DNA from: Rhizobium bangladeshense
GTDB taxonomy: Bacteria; Pseudomonadota; Alphaproteobacteria; Rhizobiales; Rhizobiaceae
DNA length: 64,000 nt
Assembly: GCF_017357245.1 (NCBI RefSeq)
Contig: NZ_CP071617.1
Span: forward strand, 124,001-188,000
Direction of reading: 5' to 3'
The position numbers were made by a program, and so were the translations under genes. Of the stretch, positions 27,563 through 42,216 are shown piece by piece. Each line of letters starts with the position of its first letter. Positions within the stretch are counted from its first letter, which is position 1. The notes below the pieces were generated by a model. It searched no databases and had not been told where the DNA came from. It was given only the letters and a program-made list of their open reading frames with translations.

Positions 27563-28177
27563 TCATTTCCCGGACCGCCATGGGGCGGTCGCGGCCAGCC
27601 ACTGTCGCGTGCGGGCCTCCGGATCCGAGTTGCGGGTGATATCGGTGACCACGGCGGCACTGTCGGCGCCGTTTTCCAGTACCAGCGGCGCCCGTTCGGC
27701 GGTGATCCCGCCGATGGCGACGAGCGGTGTCGTGCCGACGCGCTGGCGCCAGTCGGAAAGGCGTTCGACGCCTTGCGGCGCCCATTTCATTTCTTTGAGT
27801 ATCGTGGGCCAGACCGGCCCGAGCGCAACATAATCCGGCTCGGCCGCGAGCGCCGCCTCCAGCTCCGATACATCGTGCGTGGAAAGGCCTAGCTTCAGGC
27901 CGGCGCGACGAATGGCATTCCTGTCGGCGGCCACCAGGTCTTCCTGCCCGAGATGAATGAAATCGCATCCTTCATCGATCGCCAGCTTCCAATAATCATT
28001 GACGACCAGTTGGCAATCCGCTGCCGCACAGGCAGCCTTCGCATGCCGTATCTCCTCGCGAAGTATTGCATCTGAACGATCCTTGATGCGCAGCTGGACG
28101 AGTTTGACGCCAAGCGGCACGAGGCGTTCGACCCATTCGGCGCTGTCGACGATGAGATAGAAGGGGTCGAGCTTCAT
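27563..28177 (-). CDS. thiE: Thiamine phosphate synthase ThiE
   Basis: A 204-residue TIM barrel that joins hydroxymethylpyrimidine pyrophosphate to the thiazole phosphate carboxylate, giving thiamine phosphate. Family marks are VQLRIKDR for the substrate loop, [29 protein letters not shown], and [10 protein letters not shown] followed by AIGGIT for phosphate binding. It overlaps thiG by four bases and closes the thiCOSGE operon. The preceding 27365-27562 stretch downstream of the LysR gene has no gene and no clear terminator. Confidence 0.93.
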
Positions 28178-28947
28178 GAGAAGACGGCCTTTCCGATGAC
28201 GGGAGTGGACGGCACGGCAATGTCGCGTGGTTCCAGCGGTACGGCGCCATGCGCCAGGCTGCCGGCATCGATGGCAAGCGCGAAGGCCTCGGCAATGGTG
28301 GCGGGATCGCCTGCGCCGGCAACGGCTGTGTTGAGAAGAACGGCATCATAACCGTACTCCATGACGGTAGCGGCATGAGACGGCCGGCCGATGCCGGCAT
28401 CGATGATCAGCGGCACATCCGGAAAATGCGCACGAAACGCCCGCAGCGCCATCGGGTTCAGCGGCCCCTTAGCGGAGCCGATCGGCGCACACCAGGGCAT
28501 CAGGACACGGCAACCGGCTTCCAGCAGCCTTTCGGCTACGACAAGGTCGTCGGTTGTATAGGGAAAGACCTGAAAGCCCTCGCCGGTGAGGATGCGGGCG
28601 GCCTCGACAAGGCCGAAGACGTCAGGCTGCAGCGTATCGTGATGACCGATCACTTCGAGCTTGATCCAGTCGGTGCGGAAGACCTCGCGCGCCATCTTCG
28701 CCGTCAGCACTGCCTCCTGCACGCTGTGGCATCCGGCTGTATTCGGCAGCACGCGCACGCCAAGCTCGCCGATCAGGTCGAAGAAGGCGCCGCCCGCTTT
28801 GCCGCCGACGGCTTCGCGGCGAAGCGACACGGTGACGATCTCGGTCTTCGAACGCCTCACCGCTTCTGCAAGGACAGCTGGAGACGGATAGCGGGCGGTG
28901 CCGAGCAGCAGCCGGGAACGGACTTCGATATCATAAAGTTTCAGCAT
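28174..28947 (-). CDS. thiG: Thiazole synthase ThiG
   Basis: A 257-residue thiazole synthase that condenses deoxyxylulose phosphate, dehydroglycine and ThiS thiocarboxylate. Visible motifs are [46 protein letters not shown], the Schiff-base Lys in WIKLEVIGH, and [37 protein letters not shown]. The ATG at 28945-28947, preceded by GGAGGCTGAG, gives normal family length; a longer upstream reading is the antisense-phase extension through thiS. It overlaps thiE by four bases. Confidence 0.95.
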
Positions 28948-28948
28948 C

Positions 28949-29146
28949 TCAGCCTCCTTGCATGGGTGAGAGAATTTCGATGCGGTCGCGTTCGCCGAGC
29001 CTGAAATCGGCGCGATCCTCGCGGTGCACCAGCTCGCCGTTGACAGCGGTCGCCAGCCATCCGCCTTCGTAGTCCAGAGCCAGAAGAAGATCTGCGAGGG
29101 TCGTGGCCGCGACCTCCTGTTCCTCGCCATTGATGATGAAGGTCAT
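28949..29146 (-). CDS. thiS: Sulfur carrier protein ThiS
   Basis: A 65-residue ubiquitin-like sulfur carrier ending in the required Gly-Gly (SPMQGG). The beta-grasp start [12 protein letters not shown] and the [26 protein letters not shown] segment are typical. The carboxy-terminal glycine is adenylated and converted to thiocarboxylate to deliver sulfur to ThiG. It overlaps thiO by four bases and ends one base before the thiG start. No thiF is in the window, so activation must be supplied elsewhere. Confidence 0.95.
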
Positions 29147-30129
29147 GATGCCCTCCTTTCCGGTTGGTTGCCTTCTCCAAGAAGAAGCCGCGCCACCTCG
29201 CCGGCAATGGCCGGCGCCAGCAGAAAGCCGTGGCGGTAGAGGCCATTGACATGGAGGGTGCGCCCCTCCTGCGTCACACGCGGCAAATTGTCGGGGTAAG
29301 CTGGCCGCACGCCCGCGCCGGTTTCGGTAACCCGTGCCTCGCCGAAGGCGGGATTGAGGGCATAGGCGGCATTCAGCAATTCCATCAGCGAACGCGCGGT
29401 AATCGGGCCGACATCGTCACTTTCGATCATCGTCGCCCCGATCATGAAGCGATTTCCCTGCCGCGGCACGATATAGATCGGGTGGCGCGGATGCAGCAGA
29501 CGGACGGGACGGGAGAGATTCACCTCGCTCGTTTCGACGCACAGCATCTCTCCGCGAACGCCGCGCAATTCGGGCAGGCGGCCGATCTGGGCGGCCCCGG
29601 TGCAGTCGATCACACGATCGTAATGGGCAAGGTCGGGGTCACCCGTGACCCCGAATGTGAGATGCATGCGGGCTTCCTCAAGTCCGGCGGCGAGCCCCGA
29701 GAGCGCCTGCCGCGGATCGAGATGCGCTTCCTGCCGAAAGAACAATGCCCTGCGGAAGCGGCCGGCGAGATCAGGTTCAAGGGCTGCGATCGCCTGCTCG
29801 TCCAGCCACTCCCATCCGCTTGTCCGGCGGCAAAAGCGGTCGAGTTCGCCGGCATCGCGCCCGGCCGCCACGACAAGTGTCCCCCGGCGATTGACAAGGC
29901 CGGGCAGCGCTGCCCCCCACCAATCGGCGGCAAGACGACCGAGCGCCAGTACCGGCTCCTCCGCGCTTTCCCTTTCGCACCATGGAGCAAGCATGCCGCC
30001 GGCAAAGCCGGAAGCGCCGGCGCCGACCCGGTCGGCTTGCTCAGCGACGCTGACGCGGAAGCCGTGCCGATAGAGCTGCCACGCAACGGTGAGGCCGGCA
30101 ACGCCGGCCCCCTTGACGAGGATGCGCAT
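29143..30129 (-). CDS. thiO: Glycine oxidase ThiO
   Basis: A 328-residue FAD-dependent amine oxidase of the DAO fold that makes dehydroglycine from glycine for the thiazole ring. The Rossmann motif VKGAGVAGLTVAWQL starts at residue 5, followed by GASGFAGGMLAPW; the carboxy half has ETGAGVRPAYPDNLP and HVNGLYRHGFLLAPAIA, a standard DAO signature. ATG 30129 is chosen because GGAGA lies seven bases upstream; ATG 30135, which overlaps the thiC stop, is also possible. It follows thiC directly. Confidence 0.93.
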   Translation of the reverse strand: MRILVKGAGVAGLTVAWQLYRHGFRVSVAEQADRVGAGASGFAGGMLAPWCERESAEEPVLALGRLAADWWGAALPGLVNRRGTLVVAAGRDAGELDRFCRRTSGWEWLDEQAIAALEPDLAGRFRRALFFRQEAHLDPRQALSGLAAGLEEARMHLTFGVTGDPDLAHYDRVIDCTGAAQIGRLPELRGVRGEMLCVETSEVNLSRPVRLLHPRHPIYIVPRQGNRFMIGATMIESDDVGPITARSLMELLNAAYALNPAFGEARVTETGAGVRPAYPDNLPRVTQEGRTLHVNGLYRHGFLLAPAIAGEVARLLLGEGNQPERRAS

Positions 30130-30131
30130 CG

Positions 30132-32184
<2,053 letters not shown>

Positions 32185-32476: not shown

Positions 32477-33391
32477 ATGACCACGCATCGCTTCATTCCG
32501 ACGATCTTCCATAATGTCATCGGTTCCCTGCCGGTGGCGCTCCGTATCGCGAGTGGCGATACCGTGGTCACGGAAACGCTCGACGCCATCGGCTATGACA
32601 AGGACGGCATCAGGCGGGCATCTGGTCCGAACCCGATGAACGGCCCAATTTTCGTGGAGGGTGCGGAGGCCGGTGATGCGCTGAAGGTAGATATCATCAG
32701 CATGACGCCAACCAGGGGCACTGGTTTTACCCGAAGCATCGTCGCGGCCAATGTTGTCGACCCTGAAACGGTTCGCGGCCTTCCGCCGCGCGATACCGCT
32801 CTCTGGACCATCGACCGCGAAGCATTGACCGTCCGGCTGTCGGAGCCGGTCGCGGGTCTCGAGAATTTCGTTCTGCCCCTCGCGCCGATGATCGGCTGTT
32901 TCGGGGTCGCGCCCGCCCTCGCCCAGGCGATATCGACCGCGACCAGTGGCGAATATGGCGGCAACATGGACTATCGCCTGTTCGGCCCCGGCACCACGGT
33001 TCGCTTCCCAATATCGGCGCCGGGCGCCCTGTTCTTTTTGGGCGACTGCCATGCCGTGCAGGGAGATGGCGAGATTGTCGGCACCGGCATCGAGACCAGT
33101 TTCGAGGTCACGGTGCGGCTGACGGTGGAAAAGAAGTCTGGGCTGGTCTGGCCGCGCGGAGAAACCGCTGAAGACATCTTCACGATCGGCAATGCCCGGC
33201 CCCTCGATCAGGCGCTTCAGCATGCGACGAGTGAAATGCTGAACTGGCTGGCGTCCGATTATGGTCTGGACAGGACGGCTGCAAGCCATCTGCTGGGCCA
33301 GGTAGTGCGTTACGATGTCGGCAACGTCTTCGATCCGGCCTATACGATGGCTTGCCGGGTCGCGAAGAAATGGCTGGCCGGCCGATCGTGA
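32477..33391 (+). CDS. Acetamidase/formamidase family protein
   Basis: A 304-residue FmdA/AmdA-type amidohydrolase that releases ammonia from short amides. Characteristic stretches are SGPNPMNGPIFVEGAEAGDALKVDI, LPLAPMIGCFGVAP, YGGNMDYRLFGPGTTVRFPISAPGALFFLGDCHAVQGDGEIVGTGIE, where GGNMD and GDCHAxQGDGE supply the active-site residues. No signal peptide is seen, so it acts in the cytoplasm. It ends 15 bases from a convergent proline iminopeptidase gene that belongs to the LuxR-solo cluster, and its amide substrate could be linked to that system (inference). Confidence 0.9.
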   Translation: MTTHRFIPTIFHNVIGSLPVALRIASGDTVVTETLDAIGYDKDGIRRASGPNPMNGPIFVEGAEAGDALKVDIISMTPTRGTGFTRSIVAANVVDPETVRGLPPRDTALWTIDREALTVRLSEPVAGLENFVLPLAPMIGCFGVAPALAQAISTATSGEYGGNMDYRLFGPGTTVRFPISAPGALFFLGDCHAVQGDGEIVGTGIETSFEVTVRLTVEKKSGLVWPRGETAEDIFTIGNARPLDQALQHATSEMLNWLASDYGLDRTAASHLLGQVVRYDVGNVFDPAYTMACRVAKKWLAGRS

Positions 33392-33406
33392 CGACCGGTC
33401 CATGCT

Positions 33407-34321
33407 TCAGTCGTGCCGCGACAGGAAGCGGGAAACGGTCGCCATGCACAGCGGCCTTTCCTCGACATGCGGCATATGGCTGGAATTTTCGAAGAGCACC
33501 CACTCGCAGCCGGGGACGCGATCGAGATAGGGCCTGACGACCAGGGGCGTCGCCTCGTCATATTTGCCCGAGATCAGCAGCGTCGGTGCTTCGATGCGAT
33601 CGAGCCGGTCTTCGATCGTCCAATCCTTCATCGTTCCGATGACGTGGAATTCCGTCGGGCCGTTCATGTTGCGATAGACGGTGTTGTCTTCGTCCATGAT
33701 GGCAAAGGTGCGCGCCACCTCGGGCGGCCATGGCGCCACGCGGCAGACATGGCGATCATAGAAGACGCGGGAGGCGGCGATATAGTCCGGATCGGTGAGG
33801 CTTCCGGCGTGTTCGTGCTTCAGCAGCGTGTCCTGCACCTCCTTCGGCAATTCCTGCCGCAGCCGGTTGGCCTCGGCAACCCAGGTGTGCATGTTGGCCG
33901 GCGAATTGGCGATAACCAGGGCTTTCAAACCCTGCGGCCGGCGCACCGCATGTTCGGCGCCGAGCATGCCGCCCCAGGACTGGCCCAGAAAGGCGTAACG
34001 ATGCTGGATGCCGAGGTGGGCCAGCAGTTCGTCCAGCTCTTCGAGGAAGAGACCGACCGTCCAGAAATCCGGGCCCTTGTCAGGAAGGCGGGTGGAATTG
34101 CCGTTGCCGAGCTGGTCGTAATGGATGACCGGCCGGCCGTCGAGGGCGGCGATGTCCTTGAAGGAATCGACGTAATCATGCGTGCAGCCGGGCCCTCCAT
34201 GCGCAACGACGAGAGGCAGCTTGTCGCTTTTCAGGGAGCCGGTCACGCGGTACCAGGTGCGATAATCGCGAAAGGGCAGATAGGCTTCACTTGTCGCGAC
34301 TTCGGCCACCGGCATCTCCAT
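33407..34321 (-). CDS. pip: Proline iminopeptidase, copy 1
   Basis: A 304-residue S33 serine peptidase removing amino-terminal proline from peptides. Using ATG 34321 (MEMPVAEV), the oxyanion motif is HGGPGC at 41-46, the nucleophile Ser115 in GQSWGG, Asp255 in GKYDEATP and His282 in SSHMPHVE. No signal peptide is visible. An upstream frame extension (to 34375) is alanine-rich and looks noncoding. It lies 57 bases downstream of the LuxR solo on the same strand, the order found in plant-responsive LuxR loci. Confidence 0.9.
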
Positions 34322-34378
34322 TTCTCGGAAGTTTGGAGACCATAACGCGGCGGCGGCGGCGAAGGCAGCTATCACAAG

Positions 34379-35167
34379 TTATAGGTTGGGCAATGACCGT
34401 TCACGCTCTTCGAGAAGGCGGTAATGGGTCGCGCGCACGACGGCCTGCGTACGATTGCGGGCGCCGAGCTTCTTGGCCGCCGCGTTGAGATGCATGACCA
34501 CGGTGGGAACGGAGCGGCCGATGATGCGCGAGATTTCCTTGGCGGAATAGCCTTCCGCAGAATGGCGCAGGCATTCGCGCTCCCGCTCGGTCAGGCGGAT
34601 GGTGCCGACGGTCCTCGCCCGTGTGTCGAAAAGCGAATAAGCGGTCTCATGAAAGATATGGGCAAGCAGATTGAAGTCGGCGATAGCGCTCAACGCATGC
34701 CGTTCGAAATCGCGGCCCCCGCGGAAACGGATGCCGGTGACCGTGGCATAATCGCCCCCCGGCATATGCACCGGCACGGTCACGCCGGTCGACATGTCGC
34801 GTTCGCGGAGATAGCGGGTCACCGGCGCGGTGTCGTCGCTCATAAAGCGATTGATCAGCGTGTCGGCATCAGTGTCGTAATTCCAGAAGAAGGGCGCGCT
34901 GCTGCGTAGCGCCACCTGCTGGACCGGGTCGATGCGGAAATAACCGCGATCGAACCAGTAGTCGTGCATGTCGTCGGCGATGTTCCTGAGCTTCAGCAGC
35001 GACGGAATCATGATCGCGCCGTCAATATCATAGGGCACCGGCGTATAATCATAGATGAGGGCCTCGAAGCCGAGCTGCTTCATTGCCTCGAAGGCCTCGT
35101 CGATCCGGCCGTCCAGCGTTTCATGCGCCGTAAATTGCTGTCTGATCGTTCCAATATCATCAAGCAT
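34379..35167 (-). CDS. LuxR solo of the plant-associated (PAB/PipR) class
   Basis: A 262-residue regulator with an amino-terminal autoinducer-binding domain and a LuxR helix-turn-helix (LTERERECLRHSAEGYSAKEISRIIGRSVPTVVMHLNAAAKKLGARNRTQA, about 192-242). Aligning MHDYWFDRGYFRIDP (67-81) to TraR puts Met67 at W57 and Trp71 at Y61, while Asp80, Pro81, Trp95 and Gly128 keep the D70, P71, W85 and G113 positions. W57M plus Y61W is the known mark of OryR, XccR, PsoR, NesR and PipR, which answer plant compounds rather than acyl-homoserine lactones. No luxI is present. ATG 35167 follows GGGGAACTGCCC. It is flanked by two pip genes. Confidence 0.92.
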   Translation of the reverse strand: MLDDIGTIRQQFTAHETLDGRIDEAFEAMKQLGFEALIYDYTPVPYDIDGAIMIPSLLKLRNIADDMHDYWFDRGYFRIDPVQQVALRSSAPFFWNYDTDADTLINRFMSDDTAPVTRYLRERDMSTGVTVPVHMPGGDYATVTGIRFRGGRDFERHALSAIADFNLLAHIFHETAYSLFDTRARTVGTIRLTERERECLRHSAEGYSAKEISRIIGRSVPTVVMHLNAAAKKLGARNRTQAVVRATHYRLLEERERSLPNL

Positions 35168-35201
35168 GGGCAGTTCCCCGGTTGGCATGCACCGCGCTAC
35201 C

Positions 35202-35217
35202 CTATCACTTCTTATAG
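35202..35217. promoter_or_regulatory. Lux-box-like dyad candidate
   Basis: CTATCACTTCTTATAG is an imperfect palindrome (CTATNA and TNATAG arms) in the 130-base gap between the LuxR solo and the divergent second pip gene. Its centre is about 88 bases upstream of the pip ATG. Sequence match to known sites was not tested. Confidence 0.33.
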
Positions 35218-35297
35218 CTGGCATGGAGCGCGTTTTCCGGTAAAAAATTAGCCATGCCCAAATATTGAGCAAGGGAAATTTTCTGCTGGAGTAATCA

Positions 35298-36188
35298 ATG
35301 TGGCGTGAAATGCAGCCGGACGCGCGATTCGAGGTCGATGTGGATGGCTATCGCGTCGTCGCCTATAGCTTCGGGATCGGCGACGAGACGGTGTTCTGCC
35401 TGAACGGCGGTCCCGGCCTGCCATGTGATTACTTGCGCGAGGCCCATTCCTGCCTGATCGACAAAGGCTACCGCGTCGTCGCCTTCGACCAGCTCGGCAC
35501 CGGCGCTTCCGACCGGCCGGACGATCTCTCGCTCTGGACGATCAGCCGCTATGTCGAAGAGACGGAAACCGTGCGCAAGACGCTCGGGCTCGGCAAGGTC
35601 CACATGCTCGGCCATTCCTGGGGCGGGTGGCTCGCGATAGACTATGCTCTGACCTATCCCGAAAATCTGAAGACGCTGATCCTCGAAGATACCGTCGCCG
35701 ACATGCCGCATCTGATCTCGGAACTGGAACGGCTGCGGGCAGCGCTTGGTCCGGAAACAGTCTCGATGATGCAGAAGCATGAGGCGCAGGGGACTTATGA
35801 TCATCCGGAATATCTCGCCGCCGTCACCATCCTCAACTACCGCCATGTCTGCCGCCTGGCCGAATGGCCGGCGCCGGTGCGCCGCTCGCTCGACGACTGG
35901 AACATGGCGCCTTACGCGACGATGCAGGGCCCGAACGAATTTCTCTACATAGGCAATCTCAGGGACTGGAACCGTATCCCCGATCTGCCGCGGCTGACCT
36001 TGCCCGTGCTCATCACCACGGGAGAGCATGACGAGCTGACGCCTGCCTGCGCGCTGAGGATGAAGCTCGCGCTGCCGAATGCCGAGCTCAAGGTATTTGC
36101 CAATGCCAGCCACATGCCATTTTATGAGAACCCGCAGGACTATTATCCGGCGCTTCTAGGCTTTCTTGACCGGCACAAGGCATCCTGA
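35298..36188 (+). CDS. pip: Proline iminopeptidase, copy 2
   Basis: A 296-residue S33 family peptidase. NGGPG at 36-40 forms the oxyanion hole, Ser107 is in GHSWGG, Asp246 in GEHDELTP and His272 in ASHMPFYE, so the triad is complete. It is clearly related to copy 1 but divergent. GGAG before ATG is well spaced. It is transcribed away from the LuxR solo and leads into a five-gene peptide importer block, the first permease starting 51 bases later. It probably processes imported or plant-derived amino-acid conjugates. Confidence 0.92.
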   Translation: MWREMQPDARFEVDVDGYRVVAYSFGIGDETVFCLNGGPGLPCDYLREAHSCLIDKGYRVVAFDQLGTGASDRPDDLSLWTISRYVEETETVRKTLGLGKVHMLGHSWGGWLAIDYALTYPENLKTLILEDTVADMPHLISELERLRAALGPETVSMMQKHEAQGTYDHPEYLAAVTILNYRHVCRLAEWPAPVRRSLDDWNMAPYATMQGPNEFLYIGNLRDWNRIPDLPRLTLPVLITTGEHDELTPACALRMKLALPNAELKVFANASHMPFYENPQDYYPALLGFLDRHKAS

Positions 36189-36239
36189 TGCAAGTGAAAG
36201 CGGCTCAAATCCCACGAAGACAGAGGGGCGATCGCCGTC

Positions 36240-37178
36240 ATGCACCGCTATAAGTTCGTTCTGACGCGACCGCTGCAGTTTCTGCCCGTACTTTTCGGCA
36301 TCAGTATCATCACCTTCATCTTGGTCCGCCTGATCCCCGGCGATCCCGCACGCAATATCCTCGGCACGCGTGCAACGCCGCAAGCACTTGCGAGCATCCG
36401 TGCCCAGTACGGTCTCGATCAGCCGATGTGGCTGCAATATGTCTATTTTCTTAAGAACCTCGCCGATGGCGAAATGGGCAAGTCTATCCTCTACAAGATC
36501 GACGTGCTGAAGCTGATCGCGACCCGCATCGAACCGACGCTCGCGCTCGTGGCCGCCAGCCTCGTGCTCTCGGTCCTGATCGCGGTGCCGATGGCGGCGA
36601 TCGCCGCACGCAATGCAGGCCGAGCGCCGGACCATGCGGTGCGCATCGTCTCGACTCTCGGCATCGGTTTTCCGCCCTTCTGGCTGGGGCTGATGCTGAT
36701 CATCCTCTTCAGCGTCGAGCTCGGCCTGCTGCCGGTTTCGGGCTACGGCGCGACCATCGGCGACAAGCTTTCACATCTCGTGCTGCCAAGCCTGACGGTG
36801 GCGTTGTCGCTCTCGACTGTTTTGACGCGAAGCCTGCGGGCGGCAATGATCGAGGCGCTGAAATCGGATGTCGCCACGGCGGCGCGCGCCCGCGGCATGC
36901 CCGAGGGCATCGTCTTCTGGCGGCATGTGCTGCCGAATTCGCTGGTGCCGACGATCAACCTGCTTGCCGTCAACATCGGCTGGCTGATCGGCGGCACGGT
37001 TGTGGTCGAGAGCGTCTTTGCGCTGCCCGGCATGGGGCAGCTCCTCGTCAGGGCGATCTTCTCGCGCGACTATATGGTGGTGCAGGGCGTGGCCATGGTC
37101 TTTGCCTGCGCCACCGTGCTGATCAATTTCATCGCCGACATCGTCACCGTGGCCGTCGATCCGAGGGTGAAGCTATGA
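36240..37178 (+). CDS. Peptide ABC importer permease, DppB/OppB-like
   Basis: A 312-residue inner-membrane permease with about six transmembrane segments. The amino block VLFGISIITFILVRLIPGDPARNILG is diagnostic of DppB/GsiC proteins, and the EAA loop reads VATAARARGMPEGIVFWRHVLPNSLVPTI for contact with the ATPase. It overlaps the second permease by four bases. The context beside pip and a plant-type LuxR solo suggests uptake of proline-containing peptides or ethanolamine-type plant signals. Confidence 0.93.
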   Translation: MHRYKFVLTRPLQFLPVLFGISIITFILVRLIPGDPARNILGTRATPQALASIRAQYGLDQPMWLQYVYFLKNLADGEMGKSILYKIDVLKLIATRIEPTLALVAASLVLSVLIAVPMAAIAARNAGRAPDHAVRIVSTLGIGFPPFWLGLMLIILFSVELGLLPVSGYGATIGDKLSHLVLPSLTVALSLSTVLTRSLRAAMIEALKSDVATAARARGMPEGIVFWRHVLPNSLVPTINLLAVNIGWLIGGTVVVESVFALPGMGQLLVRAIFSRDYMVVQGVAMVFACATVLINFIADIVTVAVDPRVKL

Positions 37179-38026
37179 GCATCGAGGCGACCGCACCCGC
37201 CTCCCCTCGCCGGCGCCGCTTCCTCGGCCAGCGGCCGATGCTTGCCGTCGGCGCCGGCGTGCTGCTGTTCTTCATCATGCTGGCGGTCGCCGCACCTCTT
37301 ATCGCGCCCTATGACCCCATCATGCAGAATGCCGAGGTGCGCCTGCAGGCGCCATCGCTGATGCATCCTTTCGGCACCGACAATTTCGGCCGTGACATCC
37401 TCTCCCGCGTCATCTGGGGTGCGCGCATCGATCTGCAGATGGCGCTGATCGGTGTCGTCTTCCCCTTCCTCATCGGCACGACGGTCGGCACCATTGCCGG
37501 CTTCTTCGGCGGGATCGTCGACGCGCTGTTCATGCGCCTCGTCGATATCATCCTCGCCTTCCCGTTCCTCGTGCTGATGCTTTCGATAATCGCCATCCTC
37601 GGCCCCGGCCTCGGCAGTTTCTATATCGCCATGGCGCTGGTCGGCTGGGTTTCCTATGCGCGGCTGATCCGGGCGCAGATGCTGGTGCTGAAGGGCAGCG
37701 ATTACGCTGTCGCCGCCGTCAGCCTCGGCTTCAGCCGTTCGCGCATCATGTTCCGTCACCTGCTCCCGAACGCCATCGCCGGCTCGATCGTCTTTTCCAT
37801 GTCCGATGCGACGCTGGTGCTGCTCAGCGGCGCTGCCGTCAGCTATCTCGGCCTCGGCGTTCAGCCGCCGATCGCCGAATGGGGCGTCATGGTCGCGGAA
37901 GGACAGAGCTTCATCACTACGGCCTGGTGGATCACGCTGTTTCCCGGCCTCTCCATCGTCTGCCTGGCCTTCGGCTTCAGCATGCTGGGCGATGCGCTCG
38001 GCGAATTGCTGGGGGTGCATGAATGA
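37175..38026 (+). CDS. Peptide ABC importer permease, DppC/OppC-like
   Basis: A 283-residue permease with the DppC features APYDPIMQN and HPFGTDNFGRDILSRVIWGARIDL, where the FGTDNxGRD motif is invariant in the family. The EAA region is YAVAAVSLGFSRSRIMFRHLLPNAIAGSIV. About six hydrophobic segments are present. It overlaps the upstream permease and the downstream ATPase each by ATGA, so all three are translationally coupled. Confidence 0.93.
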   Translation: MSIEATAPASPRRRRFLGQRPMLAVGAGVLLFFIMLAVAAPLIAPYDPIMQNAEVRLQAPSLMHPFGTDNFGRDILSRVIWGARIDLQMALIGVVFPFLIGTTVGTIAGFFGGIVDALFMRLVDIILAFPFLVLMLSIIAILGPGLGSFYIAMALVGWVSYARLIRAQMLVLKGSDYAVAAVSLGFSRSRIMFRHLLPNAIAGSIVFSMSDATLVLLSGAAVSYLGLGVQPPIAEWGVMVAEGQSFITTAWWITLFPGLSIVCLAFGFSMLGDALGELLGVHE

Positions 38027-39723
38027 GCGGCTCGGTGCTCTCCGTTCGCGATCTTACCGTCAGGGCGCATCTCGATTCCGGTCCGCGCACGCTGCTCGAT
38101 GCTGTTTCGCTCGACCTCGGCCGCGGTGAAATTCTTGGCCTCGTCGGCGAGAGCGGCTCGGGAAAGAGCCTGTTCTGTCGCTCGCTGGTGCGTCTGCTGC
38201 CCTCCTCGCTGCTGAAGATCGAAAGCGGTTCCGTGTTGCTCGAGGGGCGCGACCTGACGCGGATCGACGACGCCGAGATGCTGAAGGTGCGCGGCGGCGA
38301 GATCGGCATGATCTTCCAGAACCCGACCAGCCATCTCGATCCGGTCATGCGCGTCGGCGACCAGATCGCCGAGGGCATCCGCTACCATCAGGGCCTTGGC
38401 GCCCGCGAGGCCCGTGCCGCGGCAGTGGAGATTCTCGCGCAGGTCGGCTTTCCCGACCCCGGCCGCCAGTACGACAGCTATCCGCATGAGTTTTCCGGCG
38501 GCATGCGCCAGCGGGCAATGATCGGTGTCGCCCTGTCCTGCAACCCGAAGATCCTGATCGCCGACGAGCCGACAACGGCGCTTGACGTCACGATCCAGGC
38601 GCAGATCCTGCGGCTGCTGATCGATATTCGCGACCGGCGCGACCTATCGATCATTCTCATCACCCACGATCTCGGCATCGTCGCCCAGACCTGCGACCGC
38701 ATTGCTGTGATGCGCGGCGGCAAGCTTGTCGAAGAAGGGCCGAAGCGGACGATTCTGACGCGGCCGCAGCATCCCTATACGACCAACCTCATCGACAGCC
38801 ATCCCTCGATATCAGGCGAGATGCCGGCACCGTCGCTCGAGATCGCCGGGGCAAGCCGGCCAGCCGCAGCTTTGCTCGAGGTCGACGATCTGCACGTACG
38901 CTTCAGAGGCGGCGGCAGCCTGTTCAAAGGGAGTGCCAGGACGATCAGCGCCGTTGCCGGTGTCAGCTTGAAGATCATGCCGGGCGAGACAGTTGGCATT
39001 GTCGGCGAATCCGGCAGTGGCAAGAGTACGCTTGCCCGCGCCGTGCTGGGATTGACGCCGCTTTCCTCGGGGCACGTGACTTTCGACGGCATCGACCTGG
39101 CGCAACAGAGGAGCGCGGGCCTCGCAAAGCTCAGGCGCGAAACGGCGATGGTGTTCCAGGACCCCTACAACGCACTGAACCCGCGGCTGACGATCGGACA
39201 AATGCTCGGCGAGGTGCTGAAGGTGCAAGGCAAGGTCGCCGCCGCCGATATTCCAGCGCGGATCGGCGAGCTGCTCGACCTCGTCGGCCTCGAGCGTGAA
39301 TTCGCCGGGCGCAAGCCGCGCAGCATGAGCGGCGGTCAGTGCCAGCGCGCCGGCATCGCCCGCGCGCTCGCCGTTGAGCCGAAGCTGATTATCGCCGACG
39401 AATGCGTGGCGGCGCTCGACGTCACCATCCAGGCGCAGATCATCGAGCTTTTTCGTCAACTCACCGCGAAGATGAACCTGACGCTGATCTTCATCGCCCA
39501 TGATTTGGCGATCGTGCGCAATCTCTGCCAACGCGTCGTCGTGATGTATCGCGGCGAGATCGTCGAGGAGGGCCGCTCCGACCAGGTCTTCGCGCGGCCG
39601 AAGCATGCCTATACCGCGGCGCTGATCGCTGCCATTCCCGACATCGATCCCGACAAGCCGCTGCTACAAGGCCCCGACCGCAGGGGCGAGCCGCAATCCA
39701 TGTCCGTCAAACGCATGCCATAA
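38023..39723 (+). CDS. Peptide ABC importer ATPase, fused DppD-DppF
   Basis: A 566-residue protein joining two complete nucleotide-binding domains. Domain 1 has Walker A GESGSGKS (42-49), signature FSGGMRQR and Walker [12 protein letters not shown]. Domain 2 has GESGSGKST near 328, signature MSGGQCQR and [11 protein letters not shown], where Cys-Val replace the usual Pro-Thr after the Glu; ATP-site residues themselves are intact. Each domain ends with an oligopeptide-type carboxy extension (RPQHPYT, RPKHAYT). Fusion of DppD and DppF is common in Rhizobiales. It overlaps the second permease by four bases. Confidence 0.94.
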
Positions 39724-39742
39724 CAAAGAAGGGAACGAACTG

Positions 39743-41257
39743 ATGACAAAAAGGTGGAAATCAATCGGGCTCGCCGCCATGCTCGCTGGCCTGACGCTGA
39801 GCGCAAGCTATGCCGAGGCCGCCGGCGTGCTCACCATCGGCCGCCGCGAGGATTCGACGACATTCGATCCGATCAAGACGGCGCAGAACATCGACAACTG
39901 GGTGTTCTCCAACGTCTACGACGTGCTGATTCGCGTCGACAAGACAGGCACCAAGCTGGAGCCGGGGCTTGCCGAAAGCTGGACGATCTCGGATGACGGG
40001 CTGACCTACACCTTGACGATCCGCGACACGAAATTTTCCGACGGTTCGCCGCTGACGGCGGAAGACGCGGCCTACAGCCTGCTGCGCATCCGCGACGATC
40101 CTGCCTCGCTCTGGAGCGATTCCTACAAGGTGATCGAGACGGTGGTCGCAACCGATGCGCATACGCTGACGATCAAGCTCAGGAACCCGTCCGCGCCTTT
40201 CCTCTCGACCCTTGCGCTGCCCAATGCCTCCGTCATCTCCAAGAAGGGCATGGAATCGCTAGGGCCTGACGCTTATGGCGAGAAGCCGATCGCATCCGGC
40301 GCCTTCGTGGTCGACGAATGGCGGCGCGGCGACCGCGTCATCCTCAAGAAGAACCCGAATTTCTGGGAAGCCGACCGCGTCAAGCTCGATGGTGTCGAGT
40401 GGATCTCGGTGCCTGACGACAACACCCGCATGCTGAACGTTCAGGCCGGCGAACTCGATGCCGCGATTTTCGTGCCCTTCTCCCGCGTCGAGGAGCTGAA
40501 GAAGGATCCCAACCTCAACGTCGACATCGATGCCTCAACACGCGAGGATCATCTGCTGATCAACCATGCGCATGGCGCGCTCGGCAAGAAGGAAGTCCGC
40601 CAGGCGCTGGATCTTGCGATCGACAAAAAGGCGATCGTTGATACCGTCACCTTCGGCCAGGGCACGGTCGCCAATTCATATGTTCCCAAGGGCGCTCTCT
40701 ATTATTACGCCGATAACCTGCAGCGGCCCTATGATCCAGCAAAGGCCAAGCAGATGCTGGCGGCGGCCGGCGCCTCCGACCTGACGCTGAATTACGTTGT
40801 GCGTGCCGGCGACGAAGTCGACGAGCAGACGGCCGTCTTGGTCCAGCAGCAGCTACAGAAGGCCGGCATCACCGCCAATCTGCAAAAGGTCGATCCCAGC
40901 CAGGAATGGGATATGCTCGTTGCCGGCGACTATGACATCTCGGTCAACTACTGGACCAACGACATTCTCGACCCAGACCAGAAGACCACCTTCGTCCTCG
41001 GTCACGATTCCAACAACAACTACTTGACCAACTATAAGAACGAGGCGGTGAAGGAACTGGTTGCCAAGGCGCGTCTCGAGCTCAACCCAAAGAAGCGTGA
41101 AGAGATGTATGTCGACCTGCAGAAGATGGCCAAGGACGACGTCAACTGGATCGATCTTTATTACAGCCCATATATCAACGTCTCGCGCAAGAATATCGAG
41201 AACTTCCACCAGAACCCGCTCGGCCGTTTCTTCCTGGAAGACACGGTCAAGAACTGA
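39743..41257 (+). CDS. Peptide ABC binding protein, family 5 (DppA-like)
   Basis: A 504-residue solute-binding protein of family 5 with a Sec signal peptide (cleavage near YAEA-AG, residue 27). The mature start LTIGRREDSTTFDPIKTAQNIDNWVFSNVYDVL and the LEPGLAESWTISDDGLTYTLTIRD block are typical. It would capture the ligand in the periplasm and deliver it to the permeases encoded upstream. GAAGGGAACGAACTG precedes the ATG. It closes the pip2-importer unit; 84 bases later the convergent GST gene ends. Confidence 0.94.
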   Translation: MTKRWKSIGLAAMLAGLTLSASYAEAAGVLTIGRREDSTTFDPIKTAQNIDNWVFSNVYDVLIRVDKTGTKLEPGLAESWTISDDGLTYTLTIRDTKFSDGSPLTAEDAAYSLLRIRDDPASLWSDSYKVIETVVATDAHTLTIKLRNPSAPFLSTLALPNASVISKKGMESLGPDAYGEKPIASGAFVVDEWRRGDRVILKKNPNFWEADRVKLDGVEWISVPDDNTRMLNVQAGELDAAIFVPFSRVEELKKDPNLNVDIDASTREDHLLINHAHGALGKKEVRQALDLAIDKKAIVDTVTFGQGTVANSYVPKGALYYYADNLQRPYDPAKAKQMLAAAGASDLTLNYVVRAGDEVDEQTAVLVQQQLQKAGITANLQKVDPSQEWDMLVAGDYDISVNYWTNDILDPDQKTTFVLGHDSNNNYLTNYKNEAVKELVAKARLELNPKKREEMYVDLQKMAKDDVNWIDLYYSPYINVSRKNIENFHQNPLGRFFLEDTVKN

Positions 41258-41340: not shown

Positions 41341-42216
41341 TTACTCGGCGGCCGCCAGTTTGTCCTGTGTTCTGGTCTCGAAGTCGCTGGCGTCGTGACG
41401 CTCGTGCAACTGGGTTGACGGGTCGCCGGAGAGGCGGTTGACCATCCGGCCGCGCTGCACGGCGGGCCGGCTGTAGATCGTGTCGGCCCAGCGAAGCACG
41501 TTCTTATAGTCCTCGACCTGCAGGAATTCGGCCGCCCCGTAGCTCCAGCCCTTCACCAGGCCGCCGTACCATGGCCAGATGGCAATATCGGCGATCGTAT
41601 ATTGGCTGCCTGCCACATATTCGCTTTCGGCAAGCCGGCGATCGAGCACGTCGAGCTGACGCTTCACTTCCATTGCGAACCGGTCGATCGCATATTCGAT
41701 CTTCGTCGGCGCATAGGCGTAGAAATGGCCGAAGCCGCCGCCGAGATAAGGCGCGCTTCCCATCTGCCAAAATAGCCATGACAGGCATTCGGCCCGTTCG
41801 CTCGGCTCGGTCGGCAGGAAAGCGCCGAATTTCTCGGCGAGATAGGTAAGGATGGCGCCGGATTCGAAGACGCGGATCGGCTTCGGCCCGCTGCGGTCCA
41901 TCAGTGCCGGGATCTTGGAGTTGGGATTGACGGCGACAAAGCCGCTGCCGAACTGGTCACCCTCGCCGATCTTGATCAGCCAGGCGTCATACTCAGCACC
42001 GCTATGGCCAAGGGCCAGCAGCTCCTCGAGCATGATCGTGACCTTCTGGCCGTTCGGCGTTCCAAGCGAATAAAGCTGCAGCGGGTGACGGCCGATCGGA
42101 AGCTCCTTCTCATGTGTCGGTCCTGCTATCGGGCGGTTGATATTGGCGAATTGACCGCCATTCGCCTTGTTCCAGGTCCACACCTTCGGGGGAATATAGT
42201 CGGAGGTACCGCTCAT
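41341..42216 (-). CDS. yghU: Glutathione S-transferase family protein, YghU-like
   Basis: A 291-residue Nu-class GST-like protein, a glutathione-dependent disulfide-bond reductase and peroxidase. Diagnostic features are the long amino extension PPKVWTWNKANGGQFANINRPIAG, LYSLGTPNGQKVTIMLEELLALGH, NPNSKIPAL, FESGAILTYLAEK and the carboxy stretch WADTIYSRPAVQRGRMVNR. The expected Thr/Asn residues that bind two glutathiones are present. It is monocistronic, convergent with the peptide importer and preceded by GGAGTTTGAAAG. The gap 42217-42370 holds only its promoter. Confidence 0.93.
   Translation of the reverse strand: MSGTSDYIPPKVWTWNKANGGQFANINRPIAGPTHEKELPIGRHPLQLYSLGTPNGQKVTIMLEELLALGHSGAEYDAWLIKIGEGDQFGSGFVAVNPNSKIPALMDRSGPKPIRVFESGAILTYLAEKFGAFLPTEPSERAECLSWLFWQMGSAPYLGGGFGHFYAYAPTKIEYAIDRFAMEVKRQLDVLDRRLAESEYVAGSQYTIADIAIWPWYGGLVKGWSYGAAEFLQVEDYKNVLRWADTIYSRPAVQRGRMVNRLSGDPSTQLHERHDASDFETRTQDKLAAAE

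Follow-up and report, generated by a model that had tools for sequence, protein, structure and literature searches.

A LuxR solo locus of Rhizobium bangladeshense belongs to the known Pip system and carries a pair of predicted operators

Among the closest known relatives of the locus treated here is the PipR system of Pseudomonas sp. GM79 (pipA, pipR, aapA-F). In GM79, an importer mutant is reported not to respond to macerate, peptone or Ser-His-Ser, changes to the operator abolish activation, six acyl-homoserine lactones (AHLs) are inactive on PipR, and peptidase mutants over-respond two- to fourteen-fold, with the authors leaving other readings of that effect open (PMC4981722). The GM79 importer comprises five genes, and the same paper likens the arrangement to that of nesR, which has a similarly annotated transporter adjoining. 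According to a review, HEHEAA is the GM79 effector and the transporter is needed for its import. Here we analyze a related locus, a LuxR solo with two proline iminopeptidase (pip) genes and an importer, in a window of 64,000 nucleotides from Rhizobium bangladeshense (contig NZ_CP071617.1, positions 124,001 to 188,000 of the forward strand). We conclude that it is a standard Rhizobium copy of the known Pip system and not a new kind, and we add to that system a pair of predicted operators.

Coordinates throughout are positions in the window, and gene ranges are based on reading frames and profile searches (Pfam, TIGR01250). The module contains the following genes.

33407–34321, minus strand: pip1, proline iminopeptidase-family hydrolase, downstream of luxR (TIGR01250, 4e-78, 262.9 bits against a cut-off of 167.65)
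34379–35167, minus strand: luxR solo of the NesR/PipR class, 262 amino acids, stop included (Pfam Autoind_bind 9.9e-30 and GerE 3.5e-13)
35298–36188, plus strand: pip2, proline iminopeptidase-family hydrolase and first gene of the importer operon (TIGR01250, 2.3e-78, 263.7 bits, above the same cut-off)
36240–37178, plus strand: dppB, DppB-type permease (PF00528, 9.9e-40)
37175–38026, plus strand: dppC, DppC-type permease (PF00528, 2.9e-24)
38023–39723, plus strand: dppDF, fused DppD-DppF ATPase of 566 amino acids with two ABC_tran stretches
39743–41257, plus strand: dppA, AapF-type periplasmic binding protein (SBP_bac_5, PF00496, 7.9e-98)

All seven genes had been named in the original prediction, and reading frames and profile matches bear out their identity and placement. 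For pip1 we chose an ATG at 34321 as the start; the longest frame would begin at 34375. The divergent luxR and pip2 genes are separated by 130 bases (35168–35297). Four bases are shared by dppB and dppC and again by dppC and dppDF, and the other gaps from pip2 to dppA measure 51 and 19 bases; because of this spacing, pip2 through dppA probably form a single operon. Plasmid p6 of R. bangladeshense holds the same stretch, with proteins 97–100% identical, so the locus is probably plasmid-borne.

The best solved relative of pip2 is the proline iminopeptidase 3wmr. Among solved structures, AapF (7kz8, 789.5 bits, E = 1.2e-236) stands well clear as the nearest match to the binding protein; the runner-up scores 174.8 bits. 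Against the DppA equivalog NF043070 the binding protein reaches 153.9 bits, with a cut-off of 1005, and is thus not that of a general Dpp dipeptide importer. We therefore read "peptide importer" as "Pip-system importer", an ATP-binding cassette (ABC) importer with an AapF-type binding protein linked to the regulator, as in the GM79 type.

The arrangement is widely shared. Among 86 related loci (the best 80 of one collection scan and six from plasmids), 82 contain the regulator, both pip genes and the binding protein. The four incomplete loci comprise one without pip2 (L013), one in which pip1 was not found (L095) and two that are cut by contig ends and start about 30 bases before luxR (L094 and L097). 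Both halves of the ATPase were found in 84 loci; in 82 of these DppD and DppF are fused in a single open frame, the exceptions being L013 and L014, and in three genomes outside the class (L119, L122 and L123) they match as separate stretches. The same set was thus recovered where the gene order was sought in related genomes, and since GM79 pipR also has two flanking peptidases and a five-gene importer, we reject the earlier reading of the arrangement as unusually complete. That sighting of a known system was correct; its completeness was overstated. Published tables give the context "pip/tra - solo - pip/hp", in which the slash may mean "or", for this group with Rhizobium included (PMC4338825) and for NesR, OryR, PsoR, XccR and XocR (PMC10134790, Table 1). 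A module with two pip genes and an importer is the usual arrangement outside Xanthomonas.

Within Rhizobium, the regulator is present in 102 of 148 genomes and the binding protein in the identical 102, based on lists matched by eye. At the family level the regulator occurs in 40 of 374 genomes and 23 of 109 genera, and at the phylum level in 12 of 398 genomes, four of which are Rhizobium.

Some individual genomes differ in detail. Rhizobium sp. T1470 (L017, 9001–10701) has a luxR homologue in two pieces, with approximately 0.9 kb of extra DNA between them and the remaining module present. A second copy of the AapF-type binding protein, 76% identical, lies on another contig of one Rhizobium genome (G066, contig C4, 36571–38082). 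Two distant genomes carry the regulator in other surroundings: in one (L120, 9482–10240) there is no module gene in about 19.5 kb, and in the other (L121, 9438–11127) pip1 alone adjoins, with a distant Dpp-type importer (29–44% identity) in about 19.5 kb.

Alignment of the window LuxR to the family profile places M, W, D, P, W and G at TraR positions 57, 61, 70, 71, 85 and 113. This confirms the exchanges of W57 and Y61 for Met and Trp, and the retention of the other four residues, that had been claimed for the ligand domain. Further positions, placed by a constant offset from the six profile-aligned positions and not by structure, are V72, Q73, V101, L105, M110 and T129; they match the column for plant-associated LuxR solos in a published table (PMC3821632, Table 1), where position 57 is M in 13 and W in 5 of 18 solos. 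The protein thus has the residues expected of a plant-associated solo (W61; M or W at 57; D70, P71, W85 and G113; V72, Q73 and V101; L or M at 105). It joins an autoinducer-binding domain to a helix-turn-helix domain without a cognate luxI, and two pip genes adjoin it where at least one is expected. The W57, Y61 and adjoining luxI of a canonical LuxI/LuxR pair are missing. Assignment of the regulator to the PipR/OryR/NesR class is well supported.

The residue string MWDPWG is found in 120 of 120 relatives among the matches listed (of 335) from a first protein search, and in all 85 regulators cut from loci. In a second, gammaproteobacterial search, 99 aligned rows of new proteins comprised 57 with MWDPWG, 35 with WWDPWG and 7 that were other or incomplete. 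These sets overlap, represent database clusters and are not independent counts. These alignments make Y61W, and not W57M, the mark that members of the class have in common. PipR retains tryptophan at 57, as stated by its discoverers (PMC4981722; see also PMC3821632, Table 1), so the original prediction erred in having PipR share both exchanges.

It is scarcely credible that the regulator answers AHLs made by one of the genome's three LuxI enzymes. The domain belongs to an AHL-binding family, but W57M and Y61W, together with V73Q, F101V and A105L at listed ligand-contacting positions, fit a non-AHL class, and OryR and PipR are reported to be unresponsive to AHLs. The term "solo" also holds: no luxI is found on this contig, and the genome's three luxI genes all sit on other contigs. 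Of nine further LuxR matches in the genome, seven were aligned; three of these have W, Y, D, P, W and G, and the remaining four depart from this pattern or align poorly, one having M57 with Y61. In S. meliloti, ExpR/AHL binding has been reported at the promoter of nesR; in that case quorum sensing would act on the gene and not on its product.

The promoter regions contain two predicted operators and a further dyad.

35201–35219, plus strand: predicted operator 1, lux-type box of the pip2-importer promoter, CCTATCACTTCTTATAGCT
35241–35246, plus strand: -10-like TAAAAA, after operator 1
34367–34385, minus strand: predicted operator 2, pip1 promoter, CCTATAACTTGTGATAGCT, overlapping the luxR stop codon (34379–34381)
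34345–34340, minus strand: -10-like TTATGG, after operator 2
35255–35271, no strand assigned: second conserved dyad of the type TGCYCAA-N3-TTGRGCA, overlapping our placement of the luxR promoter

Both predicted boxes are conserved and imperfectly dyadic, and lie upstream of the pip genes, as do the inverted-repeat operators of GM79-type Pip systems. Operator 1 is centered 87.5 bases before pip2 and 42.5 bases before luxR. At both predicted operators the distance from box to -10-like element is 21 bases, a spacing that would set the box near -42 and fit a LuxR-type activator. The genes had been thought to share the 130-base divergent promoter; that holds for luxR and pip2, and pip1 instead has its own predicted operator over the luxR stop codon.

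Operator 1 was found, allowing up to 4 changes, in 83 of 84 divergent gaps, with the identical 19 bases in 76 of the 83; of the regions ahead of pip1, 82 of 83 contain operator 2 (both counts include the window; three loci without a pip2 start as anchor, L013, L094 and L097, were dropped for box 1, and these plus L095 for box 2). Across the 6.35 Mb genome, operators 1 and 2 are the sole sites within three mismatches of operator 1, operator 2 sitting exactly at that limit, and a reversed control pattern gave 1 match. No further box in the window exceeded the score used.

We scanned the 148 Rhizobium genomes with a degenerate pattern at up to one mismatch (counts cover all genomes, places those up to G102). 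Matches occur in 105 genomes, including all 102 with the regulator, which have the box on both strands. Three genomes without the regulator (G039, G094 and G125) have one match each, and the pair is found in none of the 46 that lack the regulator. Exactly two sites are present in 98 of the 102 module-bearing genomes; in G041, G053, G059 and G061 the number is higher by one or two. The third, exact box of G059, which falls inside a reading frame resembling a cysteine synthase by eye, was set aside. The stretches fetched around such sites of G041, G061 and G039, whether extra or lone, contained no module genes.

The pattern matches 56 of the 374 family genomes. Forty of the 374 carry the regulator, and in 37 of these, based on coordinates paired by eye, the box lies within approximately 150 bases of the regulator gene and nowhere else, at regulator identities down to 42%. 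At least one zero-mismatch site is present in 30 of these 37, and the 19 matching genomes without the regulator have one-mismatch sites only. The first counts of the pattern were made on the very loci that gave rise to it. More independent evidence for the box comes from its whole-genome restriction, from its adjacency to the regulator at the family level and from the lack of a pair in all 46 genomes without the module.

We propose that the locus probably works as a Rhizobium Pip system, combining import, sensing, induction at two promoters and signal breakdown. The AapF-type binding protein with DppB, DppC and DppDF would import a small plant-linked compound, peptide-like or ethanolamine-derived, and the LuxR solo would bind this compound and not an AHL. 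The ligand-bound regulator would occupy the two predicted lux-type operators, about 0.8 kb apart, and activate pip2-dppBC-dppDF-dppA from operator 1 and pip1 from operator 2. Extra importer would then bring in extra signal, and the two peptidases would degrade it, resetting the switch.

This proposal combines gene content, residue signature, co-inheritance, conserved boxes and the rarity of the box elsewhere, all observed here, with import dependence, activation and signal breakdown, which are carried over by analogy with GM79. The view that the importer supplies the signal gains support from the unresponsive GM79 importer mutant and from the likeness to AapF. The role earlier given to the peptidases, that of processing the signal, is better worded as probable inactivation, since the GM79 peptidase mutants over-respond, an effect for which alternatives were left open. 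We transfer the mechanism from GM79 and do not transfer HEHEAA as the ligand, because a close homologue of the binding protein in another species is reported in the review to be unable to bind it.

The module's protein families are annotated for peptides, and a simpler view is that of a nutritional operon for peptide uptake and breakdown, induced by any short peptide and not by a plant cue. We consider this a minor possibility, and the AapF cavity is said to be too narrow for peptides that bear side chains. GM79 PipR does respond to peptone and Ser-His-Ser, but Ser-His-Ser is effective only at approximately 1 mM or above (PMC4981722). The naming of HEHEAA as an effector whose import requires the transporter also argues for the Pip-system reading.

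Several results weigh against a two-promoter Pip circuit that acts at this locus. At the stringency used, only 19 of the 37 family genomes with a box beside the regulator have two sites, the other 18 having one. The box was not found in three of the 40 regulator-bearing family genomes (G576, G698 and G784) and is unrecognizable in two enterobacterial loci, and a sigma-70 consensus scan of the region yielded no promoter. The GM79 aapA-importer promoter answers PipR weakly (PMC4981722), and the importer may accordingly contribute little feedback. The remaining points come from work on NesR. Stress, nodulation (competition) and salt phenotypes are reported for nesR mutants in both S. meliloti and Ensifer aridi; in E. 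aridi LMR001, deletion of nesR led to lighter shoots, less nodulation and poorer growth in 0.4 M NaCl. Experimental confirmation as NesR targets is described for metHK and ahcY. One published genome scan with a NesR motif yields 5 to 7 genes in each of three S. meliloti strains, and another gives a mean regulon of 8.24.

These reports are the basis for a rival view in which the window LuxR, in line with proposals for NesR, controls stress and methionine metabolism more widely and has the pip and importer genes as just some of its direct targets. We think this unlikely, given that the whole genome holds two sites and that 98 of the 102 module-bearing Rhizobium genomes hold exactly two. Only four genomes have extra sites, and the sole exact one listed lies inside a reading frame. 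In addition, the motifs that the E. aridi study places ahead of ahcY, metH, metK and bhmT are those of SahR. Because those motifs occur there and the box defined here misses the methionine genes of the window's genome, we favor indirect effects of NesR. For a closed circuit in Rhizobium, with exactly two direct targets, box and -10 element at fixed spacing, and NesR effects on methionine, stress and nodulation all indirect, by way of the compound taken up and degraded, we would claim slightly less than an even chance.

The conserved predicted sites may confine the regulator to this locus. What this analysis usefully adds is the predicted operator pair, which in Rhizobium is nearly confined to the locus. 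In a text search of the literature, with figures and supplements outside its scope, three longer operator strings were absent from the papers listed as matches and a 12-base string appeared once in each. The box may nevertheless be in print already, since the GM79 paper illustrates an OryR site (Fig. 2) and a NesR motif has been used in two papers. A 2026 survey of Rhizobium quorum sensing deferred the solos to a second paper. With a sequence-defined pair of predicted operators, the genes under this class in nitrogen-fixing symbionts can be tested directly, and NesR can be judged as a global or a local regulator.

The second dyad (35255–35271) is the genome's only exact match to its own degenerate pattern. 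The palindrome is present in many relatives, in some of which both half-sites are altered together, and is weaker in distant ones. A terminator scan of the region gave nothing.

Two genes flank the module.

32477–33391, convergent with pip1: acetamidase/formamidase (fmdA, PF03069)
41341–42216, on the other side of the module: YghU-type glutathione-dependent oxidoreductase (yghU, glutathione S-transferase-like)

The range first proposed for the locus began at 32477; the module genes within it stand, and the acetamidase/formamidase, which lies inside that range and had gone unmentioned, does not travel with them. HEHEAA is an amide, and the two flanking genes could be thought of as working parts, for example in hydrolyzing an amide signal of that kind. 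Within the R. etli/leguminosarum group both adjoin the module (18 of the 86 loci for fmdA, 20 for yghU), but they are absent beside it in the other loci. Across the 148 genomes, fmdA and the module are nearly independent (75 with both, 27 with the module only, 26 with fmdA only and 20 with neither, counted from lists), whereas the corresponding counts for binding protein and regulator are 102, 0, 0 and 46. The window holds no extra box for either gene at the score used. A working role for them is very improbable; we rejected fmdA and yghU as parts of the module, and from these distributions they look like passengers of the R. etli/leguminosarum neighborhood. Thiamine genes (thiC, thiO and, by position, thiazole synthase; 28174–32033) adjoin the locus, and do so likewise on p6.

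Among known systems, that of GM79 has much of its layout in common with the locus. As in the window, two peptidase genes flank the regulator, a divergent operon combines a peptidase with the importer, the binding protein is of the AapF type and boxes are predicted at both promoters; those of GM79 are reported to be centered at -71.5 and -91.5 from the start codons. By position, pip1 is the counterpart of pipA and pip2 of aapA. The two differ in their ATPases, which are separate genes in GM79 and one fused gene in the window, and in residue 57, which is W in PipR and Met in the window LuxR.

In E. aridi LMR001, one locus keeps the module genes in the same order as the window, with 85% regulator identity, and from strain, family and neighboring pip we infer that its regulator is the published nesR (PEG5735). 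This locus has neither fmdA nor yghU adjoining. NesR is claimed to control the methionine cycle, whereas the window genome has no such site using the box defined here. The Xanthomonas regulators OryR, XccR and XagR resemble the window LuxR as plant-responsive solos with W57M and Y61W and an adjoining pip, but they are reported to lack a linked ABC importer and to have an APC-family transporter gene in its place. In Rhizobium etli CFN 42, the p42b locus at RHE_RS22460 shares both the module order and the fmdA and yghU flanks with the window, and differs in carrying Phd/VapC toxin-antitoxin and AAA-ATPase/exonuclease pairs between fmdA and thiC (L012, 11937–17395).

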